Source: Aquipluma nitroreducens (lineage in GTDB: Bacteria; Bacteroidota; Bacteroidia; Bacteroidales; Prolixibacteraceae). Taken from it: a stretch of 64,000 nucleotides of DNA. Positions within the stretch are counted from its first letter, which is position 1; each line of letters begins with the position of its first letter. The DNA lies in contig NZ_AP018694.1 of the NCBI RefSeq assembly GCF_009689585.1, forward strand, positions 1,798,001-1,862,000, written 5' to 3'. Of the stretch, positions 3,860 through 32,653 are shown piece by piece. Below the pieces are notes generated by a model that saw only the letters and a program-made list of their open reading frames with translations, did not search any database and was not told where the DNA came from. The position numbers and the translations under genes are program-made.

Positions 3860-3922
3860 AAAAATATGTTTATCAATCCCGGCTGTACTTTTCTTGATAT
3901 TGGCGGGATAACCATTGAATAA
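3860..3922 (+). pseudogene. Remnant of the hexapeptide acetyltransferase gene
   Basis: The stretch translates to KNMFINPGCTFLDIGGITIE followed by a stop, and matches [21 protein letters not shown] of the acetyltransferase at 1800-2351 (bases 2037-2099). Nothing else of the gene is recognisable on either side. With the duplicated cupin just upstream, this shows that the cupin-acetyltransferase unit was once duplicated as a block and the second acetyltransferase was deleted. Confidence 0.75.
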
Positions 3923-5758: not shown

Positions 5759-5903
5759 TTAACTTAAGCTCCACAGGAAAACGGTTGTATGACTTTTACT
5801 TTATTTTTGTGTTGTATTAGAAGTCGTTACATACCTATTTCATTTTGTAAGTACGAAAACGACTGCGTTACTTTTTAGCACTAAACCTTTGCTGCACAAC
5901 CTT

Positions 5904-11740: not shown

Positions 11741-12574
11741 TTAAAGCAAATTCAAGGCATTCTTGAGGTAAGCATTAACCAATAGATAACTTTTTTTTGT
11801 GCTGGAAATGCGGTAACGCTTTTTCAGAATCTCTTCCGGACGGGCTTTTTTGATCTCCTTCAACAAATGAATGTAATAGCTGAAAGCCAGATAAACACCC
11901 AGGCGGACCTGCTTTTTTAACTGACGGATGCCTTCCATCGACTCCTGAAAATCCCGGTCAATCTCGGCTTCGAGTTGTTTCTTCGTCGCTTCAGTAAAAT
12001 TCGCAAAGTCAATGTCTTTAAAATATATCCGTCCCTTTTCGCTAAAATCGTCGCGTGCATCGCGTAAAAAATTCACTTTCTGGAAAGCCTCGCCCAGCTT
12101 GCGTGCAGGAATTACCAGCTGATCGTACTTTTCGGGTTCGTCGAAATAGAAAACCCGAAGGCACATCAGGCCCACCACTTCGGCTGATCCGTATATGTAT
12201 TTTTTCAAAAGTTCTGATGAATAAACCTCCTGACTCAAATCCATTTCCATACTCAACAAAAAAGCTTCAATCAATTCGCGATCAATTTTATATTTCCTGA
12301 CAGCCATCTGGAAGCTGTCAATGATCGGATTTATGCTGAAACCACGATCAATCGCCTTGAAAGTTTCTTGCCTGAATTCCTCAAAGATCGTTCGCTGATC
12401 CTGATCGAAAAAGGTATCAACAATTTCGTCGGCAAAGCGCACAAACCCATAAATACTGTAAATTCCTTCACGGTATTTCCAATTCAGGACACGAACACCC
12501 AACGAAAATGAAGTGCTATAATTACGAGTCGTGATTCTACTGCAATCGAGGTTATTTTTTCGGTACAATTCCAT
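11741..12574 (-). CDS. crtB: Phytoene synthase
   Basis: 277-aa squalene/phytoene synthase that joins two geranylgeranyl diphosphates to phytoene. The two Asp-rich motifs are VRFADEIVDTFFD (about 46-58) and LRDARDDFSEKGRIYF (about 170-185), and the N-terminal TRNYSTSFSLGVRVL segment is typical of CrtB rather than squalene synthase. The gene follows crtI and overlaps it by 23 bp (crtI ends at 12552), so translation is probably coupled. No geranylgeranyl diphosphate synthase is in the window. Confidence 0.92.
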   Translation of the reverse strand: MELYRKNNLDCSRITTRNYSTSFSLGVRVLNWKYREGIYSIYGFVRFADEIVDTFFDQDQRTIFEEFRQETFKAIDRGFSINPIIDSFQMAVRKYKIDRELIEAFLLSMEMDLSQEVYSSELLKKYIYGSAEVVGLMCLRVFYFDEPEKYDQLVIPARKLGEAFQKVNFLRDARDDFSEKGRIYFKDIDFANFTEATKKQLEAEIDRDFQESMEGIRQLKKQVRLGVYLAFSYYIHLLKEIKKARPEEILKKRYRISSTKKSYLLVNAYLKNALNLL

Positions 12575-14042
12575 GATCGTTCTGTATTCTTTCGGTTACC
12601 AATCGCGAACTTATGACGGTCATCGGCAATCCGGTTCCCGGAATAGTCGATGCGCCCACGTAATAGAGATTATTGAATTTTTCATCTTTGTTTTTTGGCC
12701 TGAAACCGCCAACCTGGTTGAGATCATGAGCCAAACCGAGTCCACTGCCGCGGTACAAGCCAAACATTTCTTCCCAGTGTTCAGGATTTAAAACAACCTT
12801 CACTTCGGTGTGTGCATGAAAATCGAACCCAGTCCGGTCGCTCAAATCCTGAATAATACCATCTGCAATTTCATCATCGTCTCTCCAATCCTGTTTATAT
12901 CGCAAATCGGGCACTGGGCAAAGGATAAAGATACACTCCTTGCCTTCAGGTGCATAGTCTGGGTTGTGCATCGACTGAATATTGACGTAATAATAGGGTT
13001 TGTCGAGCTTTATTTTGTTCTTGAAAATTTTTCCGGCGTATTCTTCAAAATTCCGTCTCAAAAAGTAATTGTGGTGATACATGTTCGGAACTTTGGCGTC
13101 CAAACCCAGATAAATGGTCAGCGGAGCCAATGTCCATTTTTTGGCATCCAGTTTTTGTACTGAGAACTCAGGTCGTTTTAAAATAGCGCCGCGAAACCAG
13201 GCCGCATCGGCATTCACCACAAACAGATCGGCCTTCCATTCTTTTCCTGAAGTGTCAGTGAATGAACTAATCTCGCCATCTTTCTTCGAAAAACTTACAA
13301 TCTCAGTATTGTAATGGATCTGAACTCCCCGTTTTTGCAGCTCCTGAAGAATTCCTTCCACGATTTTGTACATTCCACCTTTCACATTGTAATAGCCGTC
13401 ATGAACTAATTCGGTGTAATTCAGCAAAGTATATACAGCCGGAGTATCGAAAGGAGTGGCTCCAAGAAAAAATCCTACGAGCGAGAAAATCACTTTCACC
13501 TCGAACGAATCAAAATTTCGTTCCATTTCACGCCACATCGAATAGAACATTTTTGGAGCGTGTTTAATTGGAACGGTTGTGAGTTTCAACAGATATTGAG
13601 TCAAAGAATCAAAATTGCGCTGAATCACAATGTTCTCGGTATCGTGAAAAATTTGCCCGGCAGCCTTCAAAAAACGGGTAATCTTCCGTTCAAAGTCAGG
13701 TTCAACATTCTGGAATTCAAGTGCCAGCTTTTTCAGGTCTTTATAAATCAGGTAGCTTCGCTGGTCGCCTTCAAAGTGAACCGAATAAAGTGGATCGAGC
13801 TCAACAAATTCAAAAGGCATTGGCATGTTGCAATCTTTCACCAATTCCTCAAACTCGTAACTCATGCTAAAAAAGGTTGGAGCCATGTCGAACTTAAACC
13901 CGCCTTTTTCAAGTAGGTTTAACCGGCCGCCAGCCCGATGGTACTTCTCGACCATCTCAACCTCGTACCCTCTGGTTGAAAGCCGAAGTGCTGTGCTTAG
14001 TCCTCCTAGACCTGTTCCGATTACTATTACCTTTTTTTGCAT
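12552..14042 (-). CDS. crtI: Phytoene desaturase
   Basis: 496-aa FAD-dependent desaturase. It starts with the dinucleotide-binding fold VIVIGTGLGGLSTALRLS and the GG-doublet region KYHRAGGRL, and ends in the C-terminal FAD motif VGASTIPGTGLPMTVIS that is characteristic of CrtI-type carotenoid desaturases. It probably introduces the four double bases of lycopene-type carotenoids from phytoene, acting at the membrane. It heads the minus-strand crtI-crtB operon, divergent from crtD across a 390-bp spacer. A second desaturase of the same superfamily is at 14433. Confidence 0.9.
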   Translation of the reverse strand: MQKKVIVIGTGLGGLSTALRLSTRGYEVEMVEKYHRAGGRLNLLEKGGFKFDMAPTFFSMSYEFEELVKDCNMPMPFEFVELDPLYSVHFEGDQRSYLIYKDLKKLALEFQNVEPDFERKITRFLKAAGQIFHDTENIVIQRNFDSLTQYLLKLTTVPIKHAPKMFYSMWREMERNFDSFEVKVIFSLVGFFLGATPFDTPAVYTLLNYTELVHDGYYNVKGGMYKIVEGILQELQKRGVQIHYNTEIVSFSKKDGEISSFTDTSGKEWKADLFVVNADAAWFRGAILKRPEFSVQKLDAKKWTLAPLTIYLGLDAKVPNMYHHNYFLRRNFEEYAGKIFKNKIKLDKPYYYVNIQSMHNPDYAPEGKECIFILCPVPDLRYKQDWRDDDEIADGIIQDLSDRTGFDFHAHTEVKVVLNPEHWEEMFGLYRGSGLGLAHDLNQVGGFRPKNKDEKFNNLYYVGASTIPGTGLPMTVISSRLVTERIQNDHGIVPKK

Positions 14043-14432
14043 CTGTTTAATTTATTTACAAAATACTTAAACAAACAACTCATGAAATGTTTTAGTAATT
14101 TACGAATTTATTTTTGGAGTACATCTTGTTTTTCATCTTGACAGAAAAATTATTATCTAAAAGTAACTTTTGGATTTACTTTTTTGCCCTTTTTACCGTA
14201 TCTTCCGGATGGAACTCGCATGTAATGTCATACTGCTAAAATTGAGTCCACTCCGAAAAGTCCGAGTTTATTGATTTTCAACTTTGCCACCCCTGACCCC
14301 TAAAGGGGAACTCGTTGAAAATAAATAAACTCTTCAAAGTCCCCTTCAGGGGATTTAGGGGTTTTTGACTTTTCGCAGCAGACTCAAAATTACATTTTAA
14401 CAAACATGCTCGTTTCATAAATTTAGTGAATT
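14043..14432. promoter_or_regulatory. Divergent spacer between the two carotenoid operons
   Basis: 390 bp between crtI (minus) and crtD (plus), which must hold the promoters of both operons. Near 14157-14180 there are two TAACTTTTGG/TTACTTTTTTG-like stretches close to the Bacteroidota -7 box, but neither has a clear -33 partner. A pair of C-run/G-run hairpins occupies 14289-14362 (separate entry). No MerR/CarH-type operator is obvious and no regulator gene is in the island. Confidence 0.4.
14289..14362. repeat. Paired palindromic repeat (REP/BIME-like)
   Basis: An outer ACCCCT/AGGGGT (14289-14294 with 14357-14362) encloses two hairpins, CCCCTAAAGGGG (14297-14308) and CCCCTTCAGGGG (14341-14352), separated by AT-rich DNA. 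The same design (C-run arm, palindrome, AT-rich spacer, palindrome, G-run arm) occurs at 54600-54794. A dispersed intergenic repeat is the best explanation. Confidence 0.6.
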
Positions 14433-15902
14433 ATGACAACGGCTATCATCATCGGATCAGGAATTGGCGGGCTTGCTACTGCCATTAGGCTTGCCCGTCA
14501 GGGAATTAGTGTAGCGGTGTACGAGTCGGCTGAAAAAGCCGGCGGCAAGGTGTCGCAACTTCATTTCGATGGGTTTCGGTTCGATGCAGGACCATCGCTG
14601 CTTACTTTACCTGAATTGGTACACGAACTTCTCGATGATGACCTCCGTTTCCCGATCCGCAAACTCGATGTAATTACCAAATACTTCTATCCCGATGGAA
14701 CTCAGCTTTCGGCCTTCAGCAATGTCGAAAAGTTTTCTGCTGAGGTCGGACAAAAGTTAGATATTCCATCATCAAAGGTGGTCAATTATCTCAAAAAGGC
14801 AGCTAAAGTTTATGAACTCACTTCCGACCTTTTCATTTTCGGCTCCTTCCATCGTATTAAAACCCTGATGAACTTAAAATCGCTCAGAACGCTGATTCAT
14901 TTTCGGCATCTTCAGGCCTTGAATACTTTACACGAATACAACCGGCAGGAATTGAGCGACGGTCGCCTGGTTCAATTATTCGATCGATATGCCACATACA
15001 ACGGCAGCAATCCCTATGAAACCCCGGCAACTCTGAGCGTAATTTCGCATCTGGAACACAACCTGGGCGCTTTTATTCCTGAAGATGGCATGTTTCAAAT
15101 TACCGATTCGCTTTATCAACAAGCCTTGCGACTTGGTGTCAAGTTTCATTTCAGCCAACCCGTCCGGAAAGTAGATGCAGCCAATGGCAAGGTTTCCGGA
15201 GTTATAATCGACACAGGATTTGTCGCGGCAGATATTGTGGTTAGCGACATTGATATTCATCGGTTTTACTCATCGCTGTTGCCTGATAAAAAACGACTTG
15301 CAAGAATTACAAAAGAAGAACGATCATCGTCAGCCCTTATTTTTTACTGGGGAATGAAAGGTGTCTTTCCTGAATTAGACATCCACAATATCTTTTTCAG
15401 TTCTGATTATCAGGACGAATTTGAACACCTGTTTGAGAAAAAAAAAATATACAACGATCCGACTGTATACGTTTACATTAGCAGCAAATACAACCGATCC
15501 GACGCGCCCGAAGGTTGCGAAAACTGGTTCGTAATGATTAATGCGCCAGCCGACACCGGACAAAACTGGGATGAACTGATTGCACAATCACGAAAAAATA
15601 TTCTGGAAAAGCTGGAGCGAATGTTGGGCAAAAAATTGTCGGAAAGTATCGTCAGCGAACAAATTTTGTCGCCTCCTGATATTTTTAAACAAACCGGTTC
15701 AGTCAACGGTTCATTGTATGGAAGCAGCTCCAATAGCCGTTATGCATCGTTTAACCGACATGCAAATTTCCGAAGAGACATCAACGGTTTGTATTTTGTG
15801 GGGGGCAGCGTGCATCCGGGCGGAGGAATTCCGTTATGTTTGTCGTCGGCAAACATTGTTGATGGATTGGTGAAAGAACAATTGCAAAAACGACCAAAAT
15901 GA
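14433..15902 (+). CDS. crtD: Carotenoid 3,4-desaturase (CrtD-like)
   Basis: 489-aa FAD-dependent oxidoreductase of the CrtI/CrtD superfamily, with the N-terminal IIIGSGIGGLATAIRLARQG motif, the AEKAGGKVSQ segment and the C-terminal FAD motif VGGSVHPGGGIPLCLSS. The VHPGGGIP variant and a neighbouring cruF distinguish CrtD-like 1-hydroxycarotenoid 3,4-desaturases from the crtI copy at 12552. It would desaturate the end of an acyclic or monocyclic carotenoid after CruF adds the hydroxyl. It heads the plus-strand operon and overlaps cruF by 4 bp (ATGA). It might instead be another desaturase/ketolase of the family. Confidence 0.8.
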   Translation: MTTAIIIGSGIGGLATAIRLARQGISVAVYESAEKAGGKVSQLHFDGFRFDAGPSLLTLPELVHELLDDDLRFPIRKLDVITKYFYPDGTQLSAFSNVEKFSAEVGQKLDIPSSKVVNYLKKAAKVYELTSDLFIFGSFHRIKTLMNLKSLRTLIHFRHLQALNTLHEYNRQELSDGRLVQLFDRYATYNGSNPYETPATLSVISHLEHNLGAFIPEDGMFQITDSLYQQALRLGVKFHFSQPVRKVDAANGKVSGVIIDTGFVAADIVVSDIDIHRFYSSLLPDKKRLARITKEERSSSALIFYWGMKGVFPELDIHNIFFSSDYQDEFEHLFEKKKIYNDPTVYVYISSKYNRSDAPEGCENWFVMINAPADTGQNWDELIAQSRKNILEKLERMLGKKLSESIVSEQILSPPDIFKQTGSVNGSLYGSSSNSRYASFNRHANFRRDINGLYFVGGSVHPGGGIPLCLSSANIVDGLVKEQLQKRPK

Positions 15903-16537
15903 AAACGTTTACAAAAGATCAGATTGCAAAAATCGCAATCGGTTTATGGTATCTGGTTGGGATAATCGGGTTTATGATTCGCCCGTTGCAGCCCATTTTT
16001 CAACAACTCACACCTTTCGGGATGGTGGTCGCTGCTGCTTTGCTTATGTTTTTTCACGAACCCAAAAACTTGAAAAGTGGACTTGTTTTTTCAGGTATTG
16101 CTTTGTTTGGCTTTATTGTTGAGTTGATCGGAGTAAATACGCAAGCCATTTTTGGATTCTACATTTACGGAAATTCACTGGGCCCAAAACTGTGGAATAC
16201 ACCATTTATCATCGGTCTCAACTGGTTGGTTCTGATTTATTGCATTGCGTCACTGGCCAAACCCATTCGCAACACCTGGTATTTCCCATTAATTGGTGCA
16301 GCAACAATGGTAGGCTTCGACTGGCTGATGGAACCCGTTGCCATTGCCAACGACATGTGGTATTGGGCATGCCCGGGTATTCCAAGTAAAAATTACATCG
16401 ACTGGTTTCTGGTTTCCGGATTCCTTTTTCTGATGATCCGCCTCCTGAAAGTTGAAATCAATAACCGGATTGCCGGTTTTCTATTCGCCATGCAAGTGGT
16501 GTTTTTCCTGGCTTTGAACATTTTGATTCGCACCTGA
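15899..16537 (+). CDS. cruF: Carotenoid 1,2-hydratase (CruF-type membrane protein)
   Basis: 212-aa polytopic membrane protein with about seven hydrophobic segments and the CruF family motifs: GVNTQAIFGFYIYGNSLGPKL-like stretch at about 80-100 (key part YGNSLGPKL), PFIIGLNWLVLIY, then the acidic segment GFDWLMEPVAIANDMW and the IPSKNYIDWF stretch. CruF adds water to the psi-end of lycopene or gamma-carotene to give a 1-hydroxy group, distinct from CrtC. The start overlaps the crtD stop (ATGA), so the two are translationally coupled, which fits sequential action on one carotenoid end. Confidence 0.82.
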   Translation: MKTFTKDQIAKIAIGLWYLVGIIGFMIRPLQPIFQQLTPFGMVVAAALLMFFHEPKNLKSGLVFSGIALFGFIVELIGVNTQAIFGFYIYGNSLGPKLWNTPFIIGLNWLVLIYCIASLAKPIRNTWYFPLIGAATMVGFDWLMEPVAIANDMWYWACPGIPSKNYIDWFLVSGFLFLMIRLLKVEINNRIAGFLFAMQVVFFLALNILIRT

Positions 16538-16539
16538 TT

Positions 16540-17217
16540 ATGGGAATACTGATCGCCTTTCTCATCCTTTCGCTTTGGGCTGCACACTTGGCTTATCTGC
16601 TGGTATTTGTCGAAGTATCTTTCGCGCCAATCATGCTGATTCACATCGCCATTCAAACCTATTTATATACCGGACTTTTCATCACGGCTCACGATGCGAT
16701 GCACGGTCTGGTTTCGTCAAACCGCACAGTGAACTCGATCATTGGACAATCTGCAACATGGTTGTTTGCGGCACTCTCCTACTCCCGGCTTTACGAGAAG
16801 CATCATTTGCATCATCGGTTTCCGGGCGAAGAAGCCGATCCGGACTATTCTACCGGATCGCAAAATTTCTGGCGCTGGTGGTTTTCGTTCCTGAAAAATT
16901 ATGTGAGCTGGTGGCAAATCATCATCCTGGCCATCATTTTTAATGTTTTGCAGATTTGGATTAATCAACTAAACCTCATCGTGTTCTGGGTTCTGCCTTC
17001 GATTCTGGCAACCTTTCAATTGTTTTACTTCGGTACTTACAGGCCACACAAGCTGCCACATACCGAATCGATGATGCCACACAATGCCCGAAGTCAAAAT
17101 GGATCGCACGGTTGGGCCATGCTTTCGTGCTATTTCTTTGGATATCATTATGAGCACCACGAATCGCCGCACACGCCCTGGTGGAAATTGTATCGGATTA
17201 AAAACCTGAACCGATGA
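16540..17217 (+). CDS. crtW: Carotenoid 4-ketolase, CrtW type (membrane di-iron)
   Basis: 225-aa membrane enzyme of the fatty acid desaturase/carotene ketolase superfamily. His boxes are TAHDAMHG (about 49-56), KHHLHHRFPG (about 86-95) and YEHHESPHTPWWKL (about 205-218), which fit CrtW and not the shorter CrtZ hydroxylase. CrtW oxidises the 4 position of a beta-ionone ring, so its presence implies that a lycopene cyclase exists outside the window. It starts 2 bp after cruF and overlaps the next gene by 4 bp (ATGA). A different oxygenation position cannot be ruled out. Confidence 0.75.
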   Translation: MGILIAFLILSLWAAHLAYLLVFVEVSFAPIMLIHIAIQTYLYTGLFITAHDAMHGLVSSNRTVNSIIGQSATWLFAALSYSRLYEKHHLHHRFPGEEADPDYSTGSQNFWRWWFSFLKNYVSWWQIIILAIIFNVLQIWINQLNLIVFWVLPSILATFQLFYFGTYRPHKLPHTESMMPHNARSQNGSHGWAMLSCYFFGYHYEHHESPHTPWWKLYRIKNLNR

Positions 17218-17825
17218 TTAAAGCACGACACAATAACTTATATATCTGGTTTTTCAGAAATTACTTTCGACTGTTAAGCTTCTTTCAGTTTCGGAAGATG
17301 AGCGTTGTTACCGATGTAAATCTTCCTGAAAATAGGTCGGTGCTTTTATTTCAAAACCATTTTAGCTGGTGGGACGGATACTGGTCATACGAACTGAGCC
17401 GGAAAATATTCAATCGAAAATTTCATGTCATGATGCTCGAGGAACAACTACGAAAACACATGTTTCTGAACCGATGCGGAGTATTCTCAATCAAAAAAAA
17501 CAATCGGGATTTTTTGGATTCGCTACAGTATGCTTCCGGGATTTTAAGCAACCCTACGAATTTAGTGGTCATCTATCCAACCGGTGAACTATTGACTCAA
17601 CATCAGCAAATCATGCAGTTTCAAAAAGGAATTAACCGCATTATTGCTGGAGAAACTGATCATTTTGAAATTGTATTGGCTGTCTTTTTGGTAGACTACT
17701 TTGGATTTGCGCGTCCTGAAATCCGGATTTACCTGGAAAACTATTCCGGGAATCGAACTGTTGAATCTATTGAAAAAGCTTATCATTCGTTTTATCAAAC
17801 TTGTGTAACCAAACAAACCGAATAA
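17214..17825 (+). CDS. PlsC-like acyltransferase of the carotenoid operon
   Basis: 203-aa protein with the lysophospholipid acyltransferase catalytic motif H-x4-D (QNHFSWWDGYW, about residues 46-56) and a second motif resembling the P-x-G acyl acceptor block (YPTGELL, about 121-127). It is shorter than a normal PlsC and lacks its N-terminal membrane helix. The gene overlaps both neighbours by 1-4 bp inside the carotenoid operon, so it probably acylates a carotenoid derivative, perhaps the sugar added by the next gene, as CruD does for chlorobactene glucoside in green sulfur bacteria. This role is inferred from position. Confidence 0.65.
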   Translation: MIKARHNNLYIWFFRNYFRLLSFFQFRKMSVVTDVNLPENRSVLLFQNHFSWWDGYWSYELSRKIFNRKFHVMMLEEQLRKHMFLNRCGVFSIKKNNRDFLDSLQYASGILSNPTNLVVIYPTGELLTQHQQIMQFQKGINRIIAGETDHFEIVLAVFLVDYFGFARPEIRIYLENYSGNRTVESIEKAYHSFYQTCVTKQTE

Positions 17826-18919
17826 TGGAAGTATTGGCCATTTTTACATTGGTTTTTCTTGCTCTCCGGACGCTTATTTCGCTGGCAAACCTGATGTCGC
17901 GATTGCATCTTCCAGATAAAAAGCCCATTAGCTTCCCAAAAGTATCGGTACTGATTCCGGCGCGAAATGAAGAAGCGGTACTCGGACGGTTGTTGGATAG
18001 CCTCGAAAAACAAGATTATCCCGATTTTGAAGTAATCATTTGCGATGATCATTCGTCAGACAATACCGAAGAAATCCTGAACTGGATTGCCGGCGAAGAT
18101 GAGCGCTTTCACTGGTTTTTGGGCGAAAAACTTCCGGAGGATTGGCTGGGTAAAAATTTTGCCTGCTACCAACTGGCAAAAAAAGCTTCAGGAAAATACC
18201 TGATTTTTTTGGATGCCGATGTAGAATTGAGCACGAATGCAATCACCAAAGCAGTTGCTCTTTTTCAGAAAAACGGATTGGCACTGTTATCGGTTTTCCC
18301 GCAACAAAAAATGGAATCGTTTGCCGAACGCATCATTGTTCCGGTGATGAACTGGATACTGCAAAGCTTATTACCAATGATTTTGGTTCAGAAAAGCAAG
18401 TTCCCGTCACTTTCGGCGGCCAACGGGCAACTGATGATGTTTGATGCTGAAAATTATCGCACTCACCAATGGCACTCCAAGGTCAGGAAACAGAATGTGG
18501 AAGATATCCGACTGGCACGAATGATCAAATCAGAAGGATTTAAAATAGCTGTATTACTTGGAGATAACGATGTGTTTTGCCGAATGTACCGAAGTTTTGA
18601 CGAGGCGGTTGTCGGTTTTTCCCGGAATATTCACGAGTATTTTGGTGGCCGAAGAATAGTCATGCTTGCCTTCTGGCTCATCGTTTGTTTTGGGCCATTC
18701 ATCGTATTTTTTTCGTTTGGATGGTGGTTTTTGGGTTTATTTGTGATACTTGTTTTGGCCAATCGGTTTTTTATATCCTTAGCCTGCCGTCAAAATGTTT
18801 TTTTGTCGGTTTTGCTGCATCCGTTGCAGATGATTAGTTTTACGTTCATCGTTTTTCACCATATTTTCAGGAGAATAAAAAAAGAGACTACATGGAAGGG
18901 ACGAAAAATAAAGCTTTAA
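17825..18919 (+). CDS. Glycosyltransferase family 2, membrane-anchored (CruC-like)
   Basis: 364 aa from the ATG at 17825, which overlaps the previous stop (TAATG). One N-terminal membrane helix precedes a GT2 domain with VSVLIPARNEEAVLG (about 42-56), the ICDDHSSDNTEE loop, the metal-binding FLDADVELS and the acceptor segment NVEDIRLARMI. At least two C-terminal membrane segments (about 285-335) follow. The last gene of the tight carotenoid overlap series, it could glycosylate the 1'-hydroxyl that CruF makes, as CruC does. Substrate assignment is inference from context; other processive GT2 roles are possible. Confidence 0.7.
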   Translation: MEVLAIFTLVFLALRTLISLANLMSRLHLPDKKPISFPKVSVLIPARNEEAVLGRLLDSLEKQDYPDFEVIICDDHSSDNTEEILNWIAGEDERFHWFLGEKLPEDWLGKNFACYQLAKKASGKYLIFLDADVELSTNAITKAVALFQKNGLALLSVFPQQKMESFAERIIVPVMNWILQSLLPMILVQKSKFPSLSAANGQLMMFDAENYRTHQWHSKVRKQNVEDIRLARMIKSEGFKIAVLLGDNDVFCRMYRSFDEAVVGFSRNIHEYFGGRRIVMLAFWLIVCFGPFIVFFSFGWWFLGLFVILVLANRFFISLACRQNVFLSVLLHPLQMISFTFIVFHHIFRRIKKETTWKGRKIKL

Positions 18920-22984: not shown

Positions 22985-23001
22985 GGTTGAGGTCAGTGGC
23001 G
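22985..23001. repeat. Left attachment site of the tRNA-Cys element (attL)
   Basis: GGTTGAGGTCAGTGGCG is identical to bases 32578-32594, where it forms the 3' end of tRNA-Cys (acceptor strand, discriminator and part of the T arm). A 17-bp perfect repeat 9.6 kb apart, with the integrase just inside, is the hallmark of tRNA-targeted site-specific integration. Confidence 0.88.
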
Positions 23002-23159: not shown

Positions 23160-24398
23160 ATGGTAAATGTAAAATTTAAAATTAGAAAAAGAGAAGAAAA
23201 TGGTTTTGTGAAGTTTGAAATTACACACAACAATTTTAGAGGTCGAGTAAGAAAACATATCGGTAAAGGGTTATCATCAGAGTATGATATTTACCTGAAT
23301 GATTTTAGCAATGATATTGAGAGGTATTTCGAGGGTAAAGAAGTGACATTTGATGCTACACAGATTTACGCTAATGACTATGTTGAAAGAGCGAAACAAA
23401 AGGGTTCAATTTTTACCTATTCAGATGAGTTTATCACGCTGAAGCGTAATACATTCAACAAGAGAACGAGATGTTATTTATCAAGTTCTTCAATTAATAG
23501 TTATATTAAATCAATTAAAAACTTTAAACAATTTCTTACATCAAAGCAGTTAAGTGAATTACCTGAAGTCTTAAATGATAGTGTATTGAATGATTATTAT
23601 AATTATCTCCATCCATTATCACACAATTATCGTGTAAAAATGCACTTCCGCATCAAAGAGTTCATAACTTACTTAATGAGTGAAAAACGATTGGCAATTG
23701 ACATATCATATCTGAAATCTAATTTTTCTGAACAATACGATAATCAGGAAACAGATGATGATGATCGGGCATTAACCGTTGAGGATATGATTAAACTAAA
23801 TTCATTACGCAATGAATTTAATAAGGGTATCTTTCGATTAAAGGCTTATGAAAAATCCAAAACCATTCCTGCCAATTTACAAATAAAACAGAGATCGACT
23901 AAAGAATCTAACCTGAAGAGAACTCTGGATTGTTTCTTATTCATGTGTTCAACAGGTATGTATGTTTCTGATGTAAAAAAAATACAATTGGTATTAAAAA
24001 GTACAAGAAACGGTGAGTATATTCAGTACCGAAGGGCGAAGAATAATACTTACTGTAAAGGTATCCCAATAATAGATAATGATTGTTTTGTAGGTAAAAC
24101 ACTTCTAAAAGCCTATAATATTAAATCTGGTTCAAACTTTCCACTGAACTTATCGCTCAACCAGTTTGATAAAAACCTGAAAATAATTAGTGAATTAGCA
24201 GGTCTTAATATTAACCTAACCTCTAAGATGGGACGTAAAACGTTTGCAAGTATATACTACTTCACACACAGGATTAACATCAATGATATTCAGGTAATGT
24301 TAGGTCACAAAGAAATAAAGCACACAATGCACTACCTGCGCATTGAAGATGATGATTTTGCAACTCGAATACAGGAACAATTAGGTCTTACAGGGTAG
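23160..24398 (+). CDS. Tyrosine recombinase (integrase) of the tRNA-Cys element
   Basis: 412-aa integrase with an N-terminal arm-binding-like region (1-85), a SAM-like core-binding domain (about 90-190) and a C-terminal catalytic domain. Box II is KMGRKTFAS (Arg359, with Lys356 where a His is common), followed by MLGHKEIKHTMHY with His383 and the nucleophile Tyr392. In the box I segment CSTGMYVSDVKKI the position of the usual catalytic Arg is Tyr268. IntDOT of Bacteroides also lacks this Arg, so activity is not excluded. Its location 158 bp from attL and on the outward-facing end is standard. Confidence 0.9.
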   Translation: MVNVKFKIRKREENGFVKFEITHNNFRGRVRKHIGKGLSSEYDIYLNDFSNDIERYFEGKEVTFDATQIYANDYVERAKQKGSIFTYSDEFITLKRNTFNKRTRCYLSSSSINSYIKSIKNFKQFLTSKQLSELPEVLNDSVLNDYYNYLHPLSHNYRVKMHFRIKEFITYLMSEKRLAIDISYLKSNFSEQYDNQETDDDDRALTVEDMIKLNSLRNEFNKGIFRLKAYEKSKTIPANLQIKQRSTKESNLKRTLDCFLFMCSTGMYVSDVKKIQLVLKSTRNGEYIQYRRAKNNTYCKGIPIIDNDCFVGKTLLKAYNIKSGSNFPLNLSLNQFDKNLKIISELAGLNINLTSKMGRKTFASIYYFTHRININDIQVMLGHKEIKHTMHYLRIEDDDFATRIQEQLGLTG

Positions 24399-24779
24399 TT
24401 TTGGGGGAGCAGATTTTTTTTATATATTTTTTTTGACGACTCCAATTTTCACCAAAAGGTAAACTTTACCAGATTTTCTTTTTGTGTCGAAGATATGAAT
24501 GCCCCACCAGCGGCTCTATACATAGTTCGCTATGTAACAATCAGGATTAACAAGATACCCCTGTGGATACTGGTGGGGATAGTGGTCAGAGGTACTGGTA
24601 GGGGGTATAATATTCCGGCACTGCGTGCCGTAATATAATACCTGCTCTTTGTTGCTCTTGTCCTGATTTAATCGTTGTCCTATTTTAATCTTTATGAGGT
24701 TGTTATTAGGACGTTTTTAACAACTGTTTTCGTCCTGATTTAACTCAAAGAATTAAAAAGTTTATAAATGGAATAAAAT
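24399..24779. other. Non-coding region with several hairpins and short repeats
   Basis: No gene is seen in these 381 bp. The region contains CCCCACCAG (24502-24510), with its complement CTGGTGGGG about 60 bp on; a perfect 7-bp stem with a TTCG tetraloop, TACATAG/CTATGTA (24519-24536); a near-perfect 18-bp stem GGTATAATATTCCGGCAC/GTGCCGTAATATAATACC (24604-24642); and GTCCTnnTTTAA-like repeats at 24660, 24677 and 24732, with an inverted relative near 24702-24711. It could encode a structured RNA or be an origin (oriT/dso) or recombination accessory site. No function is assigned. Confidence 0.5.
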
Positions 24780-25141
24780 TTGATGCCTTTGAGATTGCAT
24801 TTAAGTAAATTGCCAATTAATTTACACCCATACTATTTAAACCTTCGAGAAAATCAATTGCCCAAACTTATGAAATCGAACATCATATTTTCTTTTGTCC
24901 TTATCCTTCTTATTACAATCAGTTGTAAGAAAGATTCGGAAACGATTAATAGTAGAAATTTTATAGAAATCAATGGCGATAAAAGGCTATTTGGATCAAA
25001 TTTAGATTTACATCTTTTTATCGATCACGGCACGTATGACCTTGGAATTTACGATGCCCAATATTCGAAGGAAATTGCAGGTTATCTTGTAGATCGACTT
25101 GAAATTCATTTAGTAATTACTGATAGTAATCTTTTAGATAA

Positions 25142-26450
25142 TACTACTGATGCGTTAAAATTGATCATTAAATAAATCATATTGTTCTTTGAAATTTTGA
25201 TTGACTTCTAATTCAGTAATTAGCTCCTTTACGGGTGCCTTGTCGAATACTGAAATGCCTAAGATTTGCATTATCTCATAAATAGACAGTGTACTTTTGA
25301 GTGAATATTTGACGTATGCGACAATCAGGTATGTACAGATAGCTACCCAGATATGGAGGGCAACCGCATTTTCTGAGTTACCCCAGAGTTTCTTTATCGT
25401 CAGATTTTGTTTTATCCATTTAAAGAACACTTCTATTTGCCAACGGTTACGGTACAGATAAGCAATTTCCATTGCCGATACTTCGAAGTTATTGCTTAGG
25501 AAAACGAGCAATATATTTTTCTCGTCATCGTAATATTCAACCAGTCGAAGCATTTCTGGATAAAGTTTTTTAGACTTATATCCATTTAGGTTTATAGTCT
25601 TATCGCTTCTTAATCCTGAGCGTTCGTCAATATTGTAATTGCATTCAATAACCGAGTAATCTAATGTCACTTTTGCTCTTGTAACAAAAAATGCACCTGC
25701 TCTATGAATATTGTATAAAGCGGCAAAATCAACATACGCTTTATCCATCAGATATATTGCTTCAGGGATGGGACCCATGATATCCAGTATGTTGCTATCA
25801 TGGTATTTGCCATCTGTGATAAATATAAATGCAGGAATGCTTCCTCTTAAATCGAGTAGTGTATGAATCTTTACTGCTCCCCGTGAGTACTTGCCTTTTG
25901 CCCAACTAAATAGCTTTATGCTCAAAGATATGGTTGTTGAATCAAGGGCAAATATGTCATTGTCAATATCAATATTTGGGATTGGACTGTTTGCATATAG
26001 TGGTCTGACCATTTTTATCAGGTACTCACCAAAATCAGCAAAGATCCTCCAGTCTCTTCGCTCGTTTGCACGTGAAAGGCTAGACTGATTGACATTTTGC
26101 TTTATGCCCAAATGATAAAGTTTATTTTTATGGGCTTTCAAACAAGTACAAATATCTCTTAATGAATTCCGGGAAGTGAGTTGACCAAAGAAAAGTTGAA
26201 CAAACTGGTTCCAACAGTTCAATTCCCTTACATGGTAATCTCCTTGGTAACGCTCGACGCACCTTTCAAACTCGTATTTACTGACAAACTGTAATAGCTG
26301 GGCAAAAACATATTTTCCTGAATTCATAATCTTGCACTTTTTAGGCGCAAAACTATAAGTCAATTCAAATCAAAAAATCAAAGAACGCTTGTAATGTTTT
26401 AATATATAGTTATTTATATAAGTATTTTAAAAATTAACGCATCACTAGTA
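25142..26450 (-). mobile_element. IS4-family insertion sequence (1309 bp)
   Basis: The ends are inverted repeats: TACTACTGATGCGTTAA on the left and, reverse complemented, TACTAGTGATGCGTTAA on the right (one mismatch in 17). The flanks carry a direct repeat TTTAGATAA at 25133-25141 and 26451-26459 (up to 11 bp if the shared TA is counted), within the 9-12 bp range of the IS4 family. It encodes one intact transposase. Confidence 0.85.
25155..26327 (-). CDS. IS4-family transposase
   Basis: 390 aa from the ATG at 26327 (a longer frame to 26363 exists). An N-terminal DNA-binding region (FVSKYEFERCVERYQGDYHVR, about 10-30, of which the middle part resembles DUF4372) is followed by a DDE domain: the first Asp in IFALDSTTISLS, the second in AIYLMDKAYVDFA, and the YREK-like signature YRNRWQIEVFFKWIKQN with the catalytic Glu. 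All three acidic residues are present and the frame is intact, so the element may still move. It lies inside the split lipoprotein gene, on the opposite strand. Confidence 0.9.
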   Translation of the reverse strand: MNSGKYVFAQLLQFVSKYEFERCVERYQGDYHVRELNCWNQFVQLFFGQLTSRNSLRDICTCLKAHKNKLYHLGIKQNVNQSSLSRANERRDWRIFADFGEYLIKMVRPLYANSPIPNIDIDNDIFALDSTTISLSIKLFSWAKGKYSRGAVKIHTLLDLRGSIPAFIFITDGKYHDSNILDIMGPIPEAIYLMDKAYVDFAALYNIHRAGAFFVTRAKVTLDYSVIECNYNIDERSGLRSDKTINLNGYKSKKLYPEMLRLVEYYDDEKNILLVFLSNNFEVSAMEIAYLYRNRWQIEVFFKWIKQNLTIKKLWGNSENAVALHIWVAICTYLIVAYVKYSLKSTLSIYEIMQILGISVFDKAPVKELITELEVNQNFKEQYDLFNDQF

Positions 26451-26767
26451 TTTAGATAATAATAATAATCCTTCAAATAATGACTATCCTCTTGTGGACA
26501 TAAATAATCGTCAGTTAATTGATTATGCAAGAATCAATATAATTCTGTCAAAAAATGGACATGATCAGTATTACTTTAATTCTTATTATCCTACTGGAAA
26601 TTTAAAAGTTAGTGAAGCTAAGGGACAAACCGTATTTGAGTTCAGTAATATAAAATTACGGTCAGGAGATGGTTCAGTTATTCCTGTTAGTGGGCGGTTT
26701 GAACTATGAAGAAATTACCACAAACAATTTTTACAGCAATTATTGAAGAATTATACATGTAAAACAA

Positions 26768-26793: not shown

Positions 26794-27407
26794 TTTAGTT
26801 TGGTTAACGTGTTTTTGTTGGTTTGGGTTATCTGGTTGATATGAGTGAAACTGTAACCCTTTTTCAACATCTTGATTTCTTCCGTGTATTGATCTTTCAT
26901 CGCCTCATTACTTTTACGGAAACCAGCTTTGCGACCAACCCCACCACCAGCATTACGGAAATTCATATAACCACTAGCTAAACGGTTTTCGATGGTCTTA
27001 CGTTCCATCCGTGCCACCTCTGCCAGTATGGTAATAAGGAACTGGCTCATTGGGTTGATTTGTTTCTCTGGTGTTAACGTTTCGATGTTGTAATTTTGGA
27101 TATACAACGAAATTTTGTTCTGGTTAAGGATTTCGATGGTTTGTAATACCTGCAACGTGTCACGGCCTAGCCGTGACAATTCTGTTACCAGTACTTTATC
27201 AATCTGGTTACTGTTTACAAACTCAATCATGTTTAGTAATTCTTTCCGTGCAGCGTTTTTTGTTGCACCTGATATTTTTTCAGCAAAAACACTAACAACC
27301 CTATAATTCAGTTTTGTTGCCAGTTGGGTTAAATCGTTAATCTGTCGCTCAAAACTTTGGCGTTCGTTCGTACTGGAAACCCTGCCGAATAATACTACTT
27401 GTTGCAT
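26775..27407 (-). CDS. Serine recombinase (resolvase/invertase type)
   Basis: 210-aa small serine recombinase. The catalytic Ser is S11 in LFGRVSSTNERQS; the downstream VLVTELSRLGRDT and the ARMERKTIENRLASGYMNF E-helix are typical, and a C-terminal HTH follows (GYSFTHINQITQTNKNTLTKL). Such enzymes resolve cointegrates or multimers or invert DNA. Together with a tyrosine integrase on the same element it may resolve circular dimers made during replication. It follows the DUF6908-like gene with 2 bp between them, as a probable operon. Confidence 0.88.
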   Translation of the reverse strand: MQQVVLFGRVSSTNERQSFERQINDLTQLATKLNYRVVSVFAEKISGATKNAARKELLNMIEFVNSNQIDKVLVTELSRLGRDTLQVLQTIEILNQNKISLYIQNYNIETLTPEKQINPMSQFLITILAEVARMERKTIENRLASGYMNFRNAGGGVGRKAGFRKSNEAMKDQYTEEIKMLKKGYSFTHINQITQTNKNTLTKLKKLFID

Positions 27408-28791: not shown

Positions 28792-29697
28792 ATGAATCAA
28801 AGTACGATCAGAACATTAAATTATTTAAAAGGCATAAAAAAATCAGCATACCCAATTGTAGAGATTTTAGACCAAATTAAGACATTAAATGATAATGGGT
28901 ATATAAGTGGAACGCTTCCTGTTGAAACAGAGATTGTAAGAGCCAGATTGCACGATGACAATGAAAGTTTTTATTCAAAGTCTCAACTGACCTATGTTCC
29001 CAACCAATTAAATACCAAATATAAAAGAGCAAGCACACCAAACAACACCATGTTTTATGGTACTCTAAGTAACCCTCAACCAGCAAGATATTCAGATTTA
29101 AGAGATATTCCACTTATTGAATGTCATCCGTGGCTTAGAGATAAAACAACAAAAGGGTATAGAAAGGTAACATTTGGAAGATGGAAACTTTTAAAGGAAA
29201 TACGGTTTGTTGCAATAGTTCAACATGATAATTTTAAATCTGTTAATCCAACAATAAAATATTTGTCAGATGTTTTTAATAAAATGCTAACCGAAAATAG
29301 AGAAGATACAATTGAAATAACCAATTTTTTTGCTAGCGAATTTGCAAAAGAAGAAACAACCAATGATTACGATTATTTAATTTCAGCGATTTTGAGTGAA
29401 GAATATTTAAAAGCAGGAATCGATGGCATTATTTATCCAAGCGTTAGATCAAATGGTGAAGTTTTTAATGTCGCTATAACAGCTGAAGTTGCTGACAAGT
29501 ATATGACATTGGTACAAGTAACTGAGTGTTCTGTTTACAAATACTTTGAAAATTGTTGGATGGATAATGATTTCAATACTTTACTATATGCAAATCAAAC
29601 AAATTTCACTTTAGAACCATTGGAATATCCTGAGCATATTGGTACTGAATATTGTTTAAAACAATTAGGGTTAAGTTCTTTAGATGAGTTAAAATAA
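28792..29697 (+). CDS. RES-like domain protein, candidate NAD-consuming toxin/effector
   Basis: 301-aa soluble protein. A helical N-terminus (1-45) precedes stretches that fit a RES domain: TEIVRARLHDD (Arg near 48-50), YKRASTPNNTMFYGTLSN (about 82-99) and GIDGIIYPSVRSNGEVFNVAI (about 211-231, with the Ser of the YPSV motif). RES proteins such as MbcT degrade NAD+. The usual glutamate is less clear (perhaps in PLIECHPW). No Xre-type antitoxin partner is adjacent; the XRE-like gene at 31971 is 2 kb away. It looks like element cargo, toxin or defence. Family assignment is tentative. Confidence 0.5.
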   Translation: MNQSTIRTLNYLKGIKKSAYPIVEILDQIKTLNDNGYISGTLPVETEIVRARLHDDNESFYSKSQLTYVPNQLNTKYKRASTPNNTMFYGTLSNPQPARYSDLRDIPLIECHPWLRDKTTKGYRKVTFGRWKLLKEIRFVAIVQHDNFKSVNPTIKYLSDVFNKMLTENREDTIEITNFFASEFAKEETTNDYDYLISAILSEEYLKAGIDGIIYPSVRSNGEVFNVAITAEVADKYMTLVQVTECSVYKYFENCWMDNDFNTLLYANQTNFTLEPLEYPEHIGTEYCLKQLGLSSLDELK

Positions 29698-29757
29698 AAT
29701 AGCTGACTAAATTATTTTTTTACGTTTTTCAATGGAATGAGTGGCATTTAGTGCAGT

Positions 29758-29786
29758 ATTAATATCCGGCCCAGCCGGATATTAAT
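29758..29786. other. Perfect 13-bp hairpin in non-coding DNA
   Basis: ATTAATATCCGGC-CCA-GCCGGATATTAAT, a perfect 13-bp stem with a 3-nt loop, in the 340-bp gap after the RES-like gene. It lacks a T-run, so it is not an ordinary terminator. Its ATATCCGGC/GCCGGATAT core resembles the hairpin at 24604-24642. Origin or recombination-site function is possible. The rest of 29698-30036 holds only this hairpin and the terminator at 29967. Confidence 0.6.
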
Positions 29787-29966
29787 GTAGGCACTATTAT
29801 TTACTACATTCCAACCATTAAAATATCATACAACTGGCGTTTTTACTGACATTTGACTAAAATCAGGTATAAATTAATATCTGGTTTTAGTAGCCTCAAC
29901 GGTGCAGGTAGTACAATAAAACAGGGGTTATAGTACACTTAAAACCTCAACATTTAAACACAAAAA

Positions 29967-30036: not shown

Positions 30037-31479
30037 TTAGTTTGGCTTTACAATGTGTCTGTTCATATAATTTATTCTACCTTCAAAGTCAACTTTTTGG
30101 GTTATCGGCTTAGAGATTTTCTCAACCAGTTTCGATCCTCTAGCTAAATCTTTAACCTGTATTTTCTTTATTGATCTATACAGATCGTGTTCCTGACGAT
30201 TAAATTTTCTTGCATATTTCTGTTCTTCTGGATCGGTGATTTCTTCAGAAACTGTATCATCCACATTATTTGTCATTAATTCCCATGTTAAATCAATTGC
30301 GTTGATATAGTTTTTAATTGTTAGTGTACCTGTTGCCAATTCATCAGTTCTATTATATTCCTTATCCCAACTATTTTTTTTGTTGTTATAATATAAACTT
30401 AGTGATGGATATTTATGCAGCATCAAATCAATAGTACCTTTGATTTCAGCGTAGTTTTTTAGTTTTTCTGGAACTAAAGTATTACCTGAAACAACATCTG
30501 GGTGTGTGGCGATATGTTTTGATTGTAGGTACTGAAAATATAGGTTTTTTAAGGTTCTTTTTTCCGTTTCGAGTGTGTTTTGTGGTACATATTTAAACTT
30601 TGGTAAGAGAACAGTATTAAAACCAGTGAAATTAATTGGAGTCACATTTCGTTTATGTTTCTTCTTGTGATTAGTATAGGTTTGTTCAAAATCAAAGAAA
30701 CTTTCACATTTGCTTTCCATGATTGAAGCTAAGTAATTTGAATCATCCAGTTGTGTATAATCATACAAACTGGCATGTTTTTGCCTCAACGTTAATTCAA
30801 ATCGTTCCACTTGTTCATTCTCAGTATTCATTCCGTTTTGTTTCCAGCATACAGGAATATAACTTTTAGCGTTTTGGTTTTGGTCAATTTCAATCGTTTT
30901 ATTATAAATTTTTATGTACTTGACCGAATTTATATTACCCCAATATATTTCATTATCTCCTTTCGAAGTTATATTTCTACGGTTGACCTTACCTTTATGC
31001 CTAATCGAATACTTCAAGTTTAATCGGGTTCTTTCTAGGTACTTATGAATGAATTTTATCATCTCATGATTAATACAATCAACAGCAATATCCAAATGAC
31101 TGATATGTTTAAATCTTAAACCCATATTTTCAACTATTGAATCAACGTATTTAAAGAAATTCTGCTGGTACAACTGAACATTATCGAATTTGAAACTAAT
31201 TATTTCATCATCTATAAAACCTTTCCTAGGTGAGAATCTTAATTCACCAATCTTACGGTCAGCAATCCATAGGTCAGCAATATTTTGAAACTGTTTGTTT
31301 CCAAATGATTGATATTCTATGTAACATTGCGGATTATAGTAATGCTTCCTTTTGTTACCAAACTGGTCAGGTGTTGTGGATGTTGACCATAGTGGTATAT
31401 TTCCCTTAAACGAAACCTCTAAATTGTCTACGAAAATTAATTTGTTTACATTTTTTACTTTAACTGATTTACTGCTCAT
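30037..31479 (-). CDS. Rep_trans-like rolling-circle replication initiator
   Basis: 480-aa protein. Residues about 120-235 show the features of the Rep_trans (replication initiation factor) family: ISHLDIAVDC (about 126-135), EIYWGN...SVKYIKIYNKTIEI (about 177-198) and QVERFELTLRQK (about 223-234). Members nick DNA to start rolling-circle replication of plasmids or the transfer-linked replication of integrative elements (MobT type). The long C-terminal part (about 260-480) has no recognised domain. The stretch before the start is AT-rich with two strong hairpins, a plausible origin. Alternative identity: a phage or plasmid Rep of another class. Confidence 0.6.
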   Translation of the reverse strand: MSSKSVKVKNVNKLIFVDNLEVSFKGNIPLWSTSTTPDQFGNKRKHYYNPQCYIEYQSFGNKQFQNIADLWIADRKIGELRFSPRKGFIDDEIISFKFDNVQLYQQNFFKYVDSIVENMGLRFKHISHLDIAVDCINHEMIKFIHKYLERTRLNLKYSIRHKGKVNRRNITSKGDNEIYWGNINSVKYIKIYNKTIEIDQNQNAKSYIPVCWKQNGMNTENEQVERFELTLRQKHASLYDYTQLDDSNYLASIMESKCESFFDFEQTYTNHKKKHKRNVTPINFTGFNTVLLPKFKYVPQNTLETEKRTLKNLYFQYLQSKHIATHPDVVSGNTLVPEKLKNYAEIKGTIDLMLHKYPSLSLYYNNKKNSWDKEYNRTDELATGTLTIKNYINAIDLTWELMTNNVDDTVSEEITDPEEQKYARKFNRQEHDLYRSIKKIQVKDLARGSKLVEKISKPITQKVDFEGRINYMNRHIVKPN

Positions 31480-31970
31480 ATTTTAATTTTTTTACCTCTT
31501 TATTTTATTTTTATGGGTGCAACACCTTGCACCCTCAAAAACACCCTGAATCACTTACTATTAGTAGCCTTCAGGCTGTTTGTTAAATTATAGTTAATAC
31601 TGGATTTACTCATCTAGCACTAACTGTTACACATCGTTAAATAAATTTGGGTGTGAATTTTAATTACTATTCACCACCAAATCATTTTTAATTAAAACTT
31701 GTTTCCCCTCCTAATAAGACCAATGGCAGGGTTTAGCCTGCCATTGATTAATTTATTCGAATGAGAAAAATCTAAATTTATCTGTCAATATCAATCAACC
31801 AAAAATTTATTTGTCATACGAAATTATACGTTTCCCTTTCATTTTTGTTACACAAAATTAGTTATAATTAAGTTTATAAAAATTGAATATAGGTCTCAAG
31901 ATATAATTTAAAGTAATTATTTACACTTTTATTGAAGTTTTTTATATATTTGATGAAAATTACTACCTAT
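31480..31970. other. AT-rich region with two hairpins upstream of rep, candidate origin
   Basis: About 490 bp between rep (minus) and the XRE gene (plus), without a convincing gene. Two strong hairpins are present: GGGTGCA-ACACCT-TGCACCC at 31515-31534, 36 bp from the rep start, and CAATGGCAGG-GTTTAG-CCTGCCATTG at 31721-31746. The latter follows CCTCCTAATAAGACC, which could be a nicking region. A TATATTTG box at 31945-31952 is a likely -7 element for the XRE gene. An origin of rolling-circle replication is inferred. Confidence 0.5.
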
Positions 31971-32577: not shown

Positions 32578-32594
32578 GGTTGAGGTCAGTGGCG
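32578..32594. repeat. Right attachment site of the element (attR, inside tRNA-Cys)
   Basis: GGTTGAGGTCAGTGGCG, identical to 22985-23001. It overlaps the acceptor strand, discriminator base and part of the T stem of tRNA-Cys, so the tRNA stays intact after integration. Confidence 0.88.
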
Positions 32595-32653
32595 GATTCG
32601 AACCGCCGTACACGGTTTTGCAGACCGCTGCCTAACCACTCGGCCAACCGACC
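32583..32653 (-). tRNA. tRNA-Cys (GCA)
   Basis: On the minus strand the gene folds into a standard cloverleaf of 71 nt: acceptor GGTCGGT/ACTGACC (one G-T pair), D arm with AGTGGTTA loop, anticodon arm CGGT-CTGCAAA-ACCG with anticodon GCA, and T arm GGCGG-TTCGAAT-CCGCC. The discriminator is T and CCA is not encoded. Cysteine identity follows from the anticodon. Its 3' end is the integration target of the element at 23002-32594. Confidence 0.95.

Follow-up and report, generated by a model that had tools for sequence, protein, structure and literature searches.

A GC-rich hairpin cluster beside the integrase gene of a small mobile element in Aquipluma nitroreducens, tentatively read as an accessory single-strand origin

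Background

What is the role of a gene-free, hairpin-rich DNA segment that follows the integrase gene of a mobile element? The question is raised by positions 24502–24642 of the 64,000-nucleotide stretch of the Aquipluma nitroreducens chromosome analysed here (hereafter, the window; all coordinates refer to it). A preliminary description took the hairpins for a structured RNA, an origin of transfer (oriT) or a double-strand origin. The hairpin cluster is real and unusually GC-rich. It belongs to a small mobile element integrated in the chromosome, where it neighbours the integrase gene, and probably serves as a signal for replication or regulation.

Results and discussion

The mobile element and its genes

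The cluster is part of a 9.6-kb element that is inserted in a tRNA-Cys gene and bounded by 17-bp direct repeats. Its main landmarks are:

22985..23001, no strand: left att repeat GGTTGAGGTCAGTGGCG, identical at 17/17 positions to 32578–32594
23160..24398, plus strand: tyrosine recombinase (integrase), 412 aa; Pfam PF00589 at 4.5e-9, PHROG integrase at 8.4e-13
25143..26450, minus strand: insertion sequence with a DDE_Tnp_1/DUF4372 transposase (25155–26363); ends approximate, placed by eye
30037..31479, minus strand: Rep, 480 aa; weak Rep_trans match, PHROG replication initiation protein at 5.2e-14
32578..32594, no strand: right att repeat, at the 3' end of the tRNA-Cys gene (32582–32653, minus strand)

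In addition to the integrase and Rep, the element carries genes for a serine recombinase, a DUF6908 protein, a RES-domain protein and a putative regulator. The RES-domain assignment (28792–29697) is weak, at 23.8 bits against a cut-off of 23.2. When nine element proteins were scanned against PHROG, none matched a structural family and three matched no family at all. Searches with tblastn detected no relatives of the integrase in viral_contigs or genome_contigs and none of Rep in viral_contigs. The insertion sequence, with inverted ends at 25140–25158 and 26434–26452 and a flanking repeat of about 10 bp (TTTAGATAAT, read by eye), splits a small lipoprotein-like gene into two parts (24870 onwards and up to 26709). 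Read in the direction of rep, the element presents the candidate double-strand origin first, followed by rep, a second hairpin module, the 24502–24642 module, integrase gene and att site. Elsewhere in the window, open reading frames (ORFs) at 12552–18919 for two FAD-dependent desaturase-like proteins, an acyltransferase-like and a glycosyltransferase-like protein resemble, by eye, a carotenoid cluster.

Structure and position of the hairpin cluster

Repeat searches delineated the following components of the cluster and its 3' neighbour:

24502..24510, plus strand: 5' arm of the outer stem, CCCCACCAG
24519..24536, plus strand: inner hairpin TACATAG-TTCG-CTATGTA
24570..24578, plus strand: 3' arm of the outer stem, CTGGTGGGG
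24604..24642, no strand: palindrome with 18-nt arms (16/18 paired) and a 3-nt apex
24658..24756, plus strand: tail with three related 17-nt repeats (GTCCT..TTTAA core)

The arms of the outer stem (CCCCACCAG/CTGGTGGGG) form 9/9 pairs with 59 nt between them and enclose the inner hairpin, whose own arms (24519–24525 and 24530–24536) form 7/7 pairs round a TTCG loop. The palindrome, with arms at 24604–24621 and 24625–24642 that are 89% complementary, forms in the predicted folds of both DNA and RNA on both strands. All three structures in the preliminary description, namely the stem, the TTCG hairpin and the near-perfect 18-nt palindrome, are present where it had placed them. The TTCG hairpin is nested within the outer stem; the palindrome lies beside that stem. 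The module starts 104 nt past the stop codon of the integrase ORF, which ends at 24398. As described previously, the stretch after the integrase is gene-free: no ORF of at least 60 aa is wholly contained between 24398 and the start of the next listed ORF at 24780. The neighbour on the 3' side is the lipoprotein-like gene, with an ATG placed by eye at 24870.

The GC content is 0.48 in 24502–24642, compared with 0.30 on either side of it and 0.32 over the whole element. Among 947 stretches of 140 nt in the element, four match or exceed the GC content of the one starting at 24505: that stretch itself, two that overlap it, and a fourth, at 26915, that falls within the resolvase gene.

Folding strength

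The segment 24490–24660 (171 nt) was folded as DNA and as RNA together with 200 dinucleotide shuffles per strand. As DNA, it gave z-scores of −3.6 on the plus strand and −4.4 on the minus strand, with no shuffled sequence folding as well on either. As RNA, the scores were −2.5 (plus; 1/200 shuffles as good) and −4.2 (minus; 0/200), and for the longer segment 24480–24680 they were −1.9 (8/200) and −3.1 (2/200), respectively. Because the RNA fold stands out from its shuffles about as much as the DNA fold does, folding gives no preference for single-stranded DNA. Still, like a single-strand origin (sso), 24502–24642 is a non-coding stem-loop region that folds as single-stranded DNA. When the 64 kb were scanned in 802 segments of 145 nt, the module ranked 13th for folding excess, which makes its structure strong but not unique. 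The earlier view of this region as a structured nucleic acid is thus supported by both folding and GC content; its suggestion of a double-strand origin has become less likely, as discussed below.

For comparison, we fetched 29 loci encoding integrases with 26–37% identity to that of the element and obtained scores for 27 of them, all but L011 and L012. Within 420 nt of the integrase stop codon, excess folding was above that of the window's own integrase locus in 14 of the 27 loci and equal or less in 13, so the structure that follows the integrase is not special in amount. The strongest structure in this control set, a very long near-perfect hairpin, lies directly 3' of the integrase relative in L017 (2065–2194).

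Search for relatives of the module

Among 140 genomes of the family, the A. nitroreducens genome included, module DNA was found only in A. nitroreducens itself. Four of the 140 genomes gave matches at E 0.001, and these comprised the genome itself, two that matched the tail only, and one with a T-rich match of 27 bases (24408–24434). A search of 72,556 plasmid records and 50,697 phage records at E 1e-5 found no match for the region 24400–24800, which is why we compare the module with known sso classes by its possible way of working and do not place it in any of them. Within the A. nitroreducens genome, the module matches only itself. A covariance model built from the single module sequence was used to scan the 140 family genomes and 37 other loci. 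It recovered the module, its own palindrome in reverse, and one weak match (E 0.23) inside an ORF of another family genome (G031); the module was absent from the 37 loci. Nor did we detect a counterpart in the 15 kb around the closest Rep relative (L039). At the gathering threshold, Rfam recognized nothing in the 64-kb window except the tRNA; the six matches that it gave on 24380–24800 with E values of up to 5 (best 0.18) stayed far short of the cut-offs of their families. A pattern of the outer stem occurred at eight loci in viral_contigs; the sequences compared lacked the inner hairpin, and the pattern was set aside. We found no publication joining rolling-circle, Bacteroides, single-strand origin and hairpin in one open library.

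According to the preliminary description, its reading would fall if the sequence were not conserved in related elements and, in addition, neither a transcript nor a nick were found. On the first of these points, no relative of the module was found, which does count against it, albeit weakly, because the nearest Rep relative is only 43% identical and the integrase relatives only 26–37%.

Rep and the candidate double-strand origin

Rep matches the Pfam family PF02486 (Rep_trans) at 20.4 bits, below the cut-off of 29.6. Its relative in L188 passes this cut-off at 34.6, and the relatives in L039 and L186 match Phage_CRI below the cut-off for that family. The closest relative, with 43% identity, is encoded in G038; distant ones are found in G086, G363 and G797, and a broken fragment in G718. 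The Reps of Cellulophaga ssDNA phages share 22.5–23.2% identity with the element protein over 60% of its length. Residues invariant across five Reps include Y192, K194, E197, R226 and E228, and Y192 is a candidate for the nicking tyrosine. A PDB profile search returned 17 matches up to E 1, the best of them (0.72) to the androgen receptor, and we consider these to be chance matches; a structure predicted from the single sequence had a mean pLDDT of 37.8 and was unusable.

Two further features flank rep:

29733..29813, plus strand: second multi-hairpin module, nested hairpins between the RES-domain gene and rep
31721..31746, no strand: candidate double-strand-origin hairpin CAATGGCAGG-GTTTAG-CCTGCCATTG, upstream of rep

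A stretch of about 65 nt upstream of rep, including the 10-bp hairpin at 31721–31746, is kept in the G038 locus that encodes the 43%-identical Rep (L039). This conservation makes the hairpin a better candidate for the double-strand origin than the module, whose counterpart is absent from that locus. A pattern scan for the hairpin gave zero matches. The hairpin also scores as terminator-like on the plus strand, and another strong fold, immediately upstream of rep at 31491–31580, counts against it as the origin; relative to mononucleotide shuffles, that fold has a z-score of −7.9. In the pT181-family (Rep_trans) plasmids, as described in PMC5703833, the double-strand origin lies within rep, which counts both against 31721–31746 as the origin and against the sso account given below. 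In the locus of another Rep relative, L186, an 18-bp perfect palindrome (3861–3898) is located after the integrase gene and 3' of rep; further copies of its core, TTGTCA..TGACAA, are at 5775 and 7045.

A second multi-hairpin module 3' of rep

As DNA, the second module (29733–29813) folds with a z-score of −6.8 (0/200 shuffles), which is stronger than the module at 24502–24642. Some 220 nt separate it from the 3' end of rep, and its position corresponds to that of sso1 in ICEBs1. We examined the 450 nt 3' of rep in five loci against control segments that include some overlapping the same feature. Controls at least as structured as the rep 3' region numbered 9/194 in the window, 14/195 in G038 and 15/170 in G086. 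The other two loci had no excess structure, with 42/118 controls as structured in G797 and 36/49 in G363; the G363 locus has a strong fold at 31–120, mostly just beyond the 450 nt. The likeness between the two modules of the element (p = 0.015) was one of 42 comparisons, three of which fell below 0.05, and is not significant. Matches to the second module in 42 of the 140 family genomes (E 0.1) were taken as chance, the listed ones apart from the module itself being only 18–49 bases long.

An accessory single-strand origin as a tentative explanation

That 24502–24642 is a structured cis-acting segment is well supported. Our best single guess, which we offer tentatively, is that it is an accessory sso; a structured RNA is just as likely, with plain 3' hairpins close behind. 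Behind this guess are the apparent rolling-circle nature of the element, the good chance that its double-strand origin lies elsewhere, and the gene order. Several observations point in the same direction: the DNA fold surpasses 200/200 shuffles on both strands; the element has its att repeats in tRNA-Cys and a Rep with Rep_trans and PHROG matches and relatives in Cellulophaga phages; the second module occupies the place of ICEBs1 sso1, and structure 3' of rep is high in three of five loci; and no site resembling an intrinsic terminator is listed at the module. On the other side, hairpins after integrases are ordinary, two of the five Rep loci lack excess 3' structure (a test that concerns the second module), and Rep falls below the Pfam cut-off for Rep_trans, with chance-like PDB profile matches. 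Moreover, no relative in sequence or structure ties the module to a known sso.

In this explanation, the small integrative element, once excised, would probably replicate by the rolling-circle mechanism using its own Rep. Rep would nick the DNA, perhaps at 31721–31746, and the leading strand would then be displaced, although the place of the nick and the identity of the displaced strand are assumed here. The displaced single strand would fold at 24502–24642 and at the stronger 29733–29813, and the folded hairpins might recruit the host priming machinery for synthesis of the second strand.

The nearest known counterparts are sso1 of ICEBs1 from Bacillus subtilis and the sso's of pTA1060 and pBAA1, which likewise consist of several stem-loops in non-coding DNA. 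Like the element, ICEBs1 is integrative and has a nicking enzyme of the Rep_trans kind. In the account of PMC4595007, sso1 is located immediately downstream of nicK, is predicted to form three stem-loops, and was recognized by its 76% identity to a plasmid sso. The module at 24502–24642, in contrast, follows the integrase and has no such match, and it is the second module that occupies the corresponding place. Two sso sites in one element would not be odd, because ICEBs1 has a second region that is partly redundant with sso1 (PMC4595007). The same source places the ICEBs1 sso downstream of oriT, an arrangement that keeps att single-stranded until recircularization, and notes that the sso is upstream of the double-strand origin in most rolling-circle plasmids; in staphylococcal plasmids, its position relative to rep is described as flexible (PMC5703833). 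With MobT-encoding integrative mobilizable and conjugative elements (IMEs and ICEs), the element has in common a tyrosine integrase, a Rep_trans-like protein and insertion into the 3' end of a gene, but those elements, as described in PMC5704250, belong to Firmicutes, and the element's Rep is below the Pfam cut-off. Cellulophaga phages phi12:2 and phi18:4 encode the replication initiation factors to which Rep is related at the identity given above; unlike these phages, the element is integrated, and none of its nine scanned proteins matched a structural PHROG family.

Alternative explanations

GC-rich islands in AT-rich DNA are typical of structured RNAs, and the module is such a non-coding island. 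It could equally possibly be a small RNA, or an untranslated leader or intercistronic segment between the integrase and lipoprotein-like genes, and as RNA 24490–24660 folds better than 199/200 (plus) and 200/200 (minus) shuffles. At 24396 (plus strand), there is also TAGTTTTG, which we take to be a Bacteroidetes-type −7 box. However, it lacks a TTTG at −33, and the window has 34 boxes of this kind on the plus and 31 on the minus strand; no Rfam family reaches its cut-off, and no homologue was found for covariation analysis. A further point against an RNA gene bears equally on a somewhat less probable explanation, in which the hairpins simply end or stabilize the integrase mRNA and have no wider role: the ten listed terminator-like sites, in which a T-run follows a GC-rich stem, are all outside 24345–26766. 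Such ordinary hairpins would be in keeping with the 14 of 27 integrase loci that fold more and with the 13th rank among 802 segments, but the module starts 104 nt past the stop codon, has several stems, and is well above its flanks in GC content.

It seems improbable that the module is an oriT or double-strand origin, at which either the element's own Rep or, in trans, a resident conjugative element would nick the DNA. Inverted repeats within a non-coding region would suit such a site, as would the relationship between Rep_trans proteins and the MobT relaxases of ICEs and IMEs (PMC5704250) and the nicking by pT181 Rep of a palindrome extruded as a cruciform (PMC5703833). Since the module matches only itself in the genome, however, mimicry of a resident oriT is not seen at this sensitivity, and 31721–31746 is the better candidate for a nick site, though itself unproven and terminator-like on the plus strand. 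The module has no counterpart in the 15 kb around the 43%-identical Rep; Reps this far apart need not share an origin. On the minus strand, TAGCGA (24527), which we regard as a CS-6-like motif, is found at the loop of the inner hairpin; it was set aside, as TAGCG[AT] occurs seven times in the element.

Finally, the module and the tail (24658–24756) might together be the remnant or end of a transposable element, which we also consider quite unlikely. The ends of complex transposons carry related repeats, and the tail, with its three related 17-nt repeats, recurs over about 99 nt in two other genomes of the family (L002 and L003), each time in another context: the L002 copy lies right beside the end of an IS4-type transposase gene, and the other copy is near tRNA-Leu and tRNA-Gly genes. 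The tail is nevertheless not part of the IS4-type insertion sequence, because the sequence past the stop codon differs in the other copies compared. Its best alignment to 30 IS21 loci scored 29, as opposed to 55–58 for the two true matches; these matches end short of the hairpins; and in comparisons with six Y1 transposase loci, shuffled copies of the module did at least as well as the module itself. A 15-base pattern from the tail was found in viral_contigs, where 50 loci were scored, and the six alignments examined share little beyond the 15-mer; we take these loci as chance matches.

Conclusion

The accessory sso remains our tentative best guess for 24502–24642, with a structured RNA just as likely. 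A bolder proposal, which we put forward as a rather long shot, is that the element represents an undescribed family of small rolling-circle elements that are integrated at tRNA genes of Bacteroidota, with two hairpin modules acting as lagging-strand origins unrelated to the Gram-positive classes, the integrase-side one perhaps with an adjoining array of protein-binding repeats. If it is not an sso, the segment is an unremarkable hairpin region of a mobile element. If it is, it would represent a start site for lagging-strand synthesis in an integrative element of Bacteroidota and would be useful for the construction of vectors and for understanding host range.
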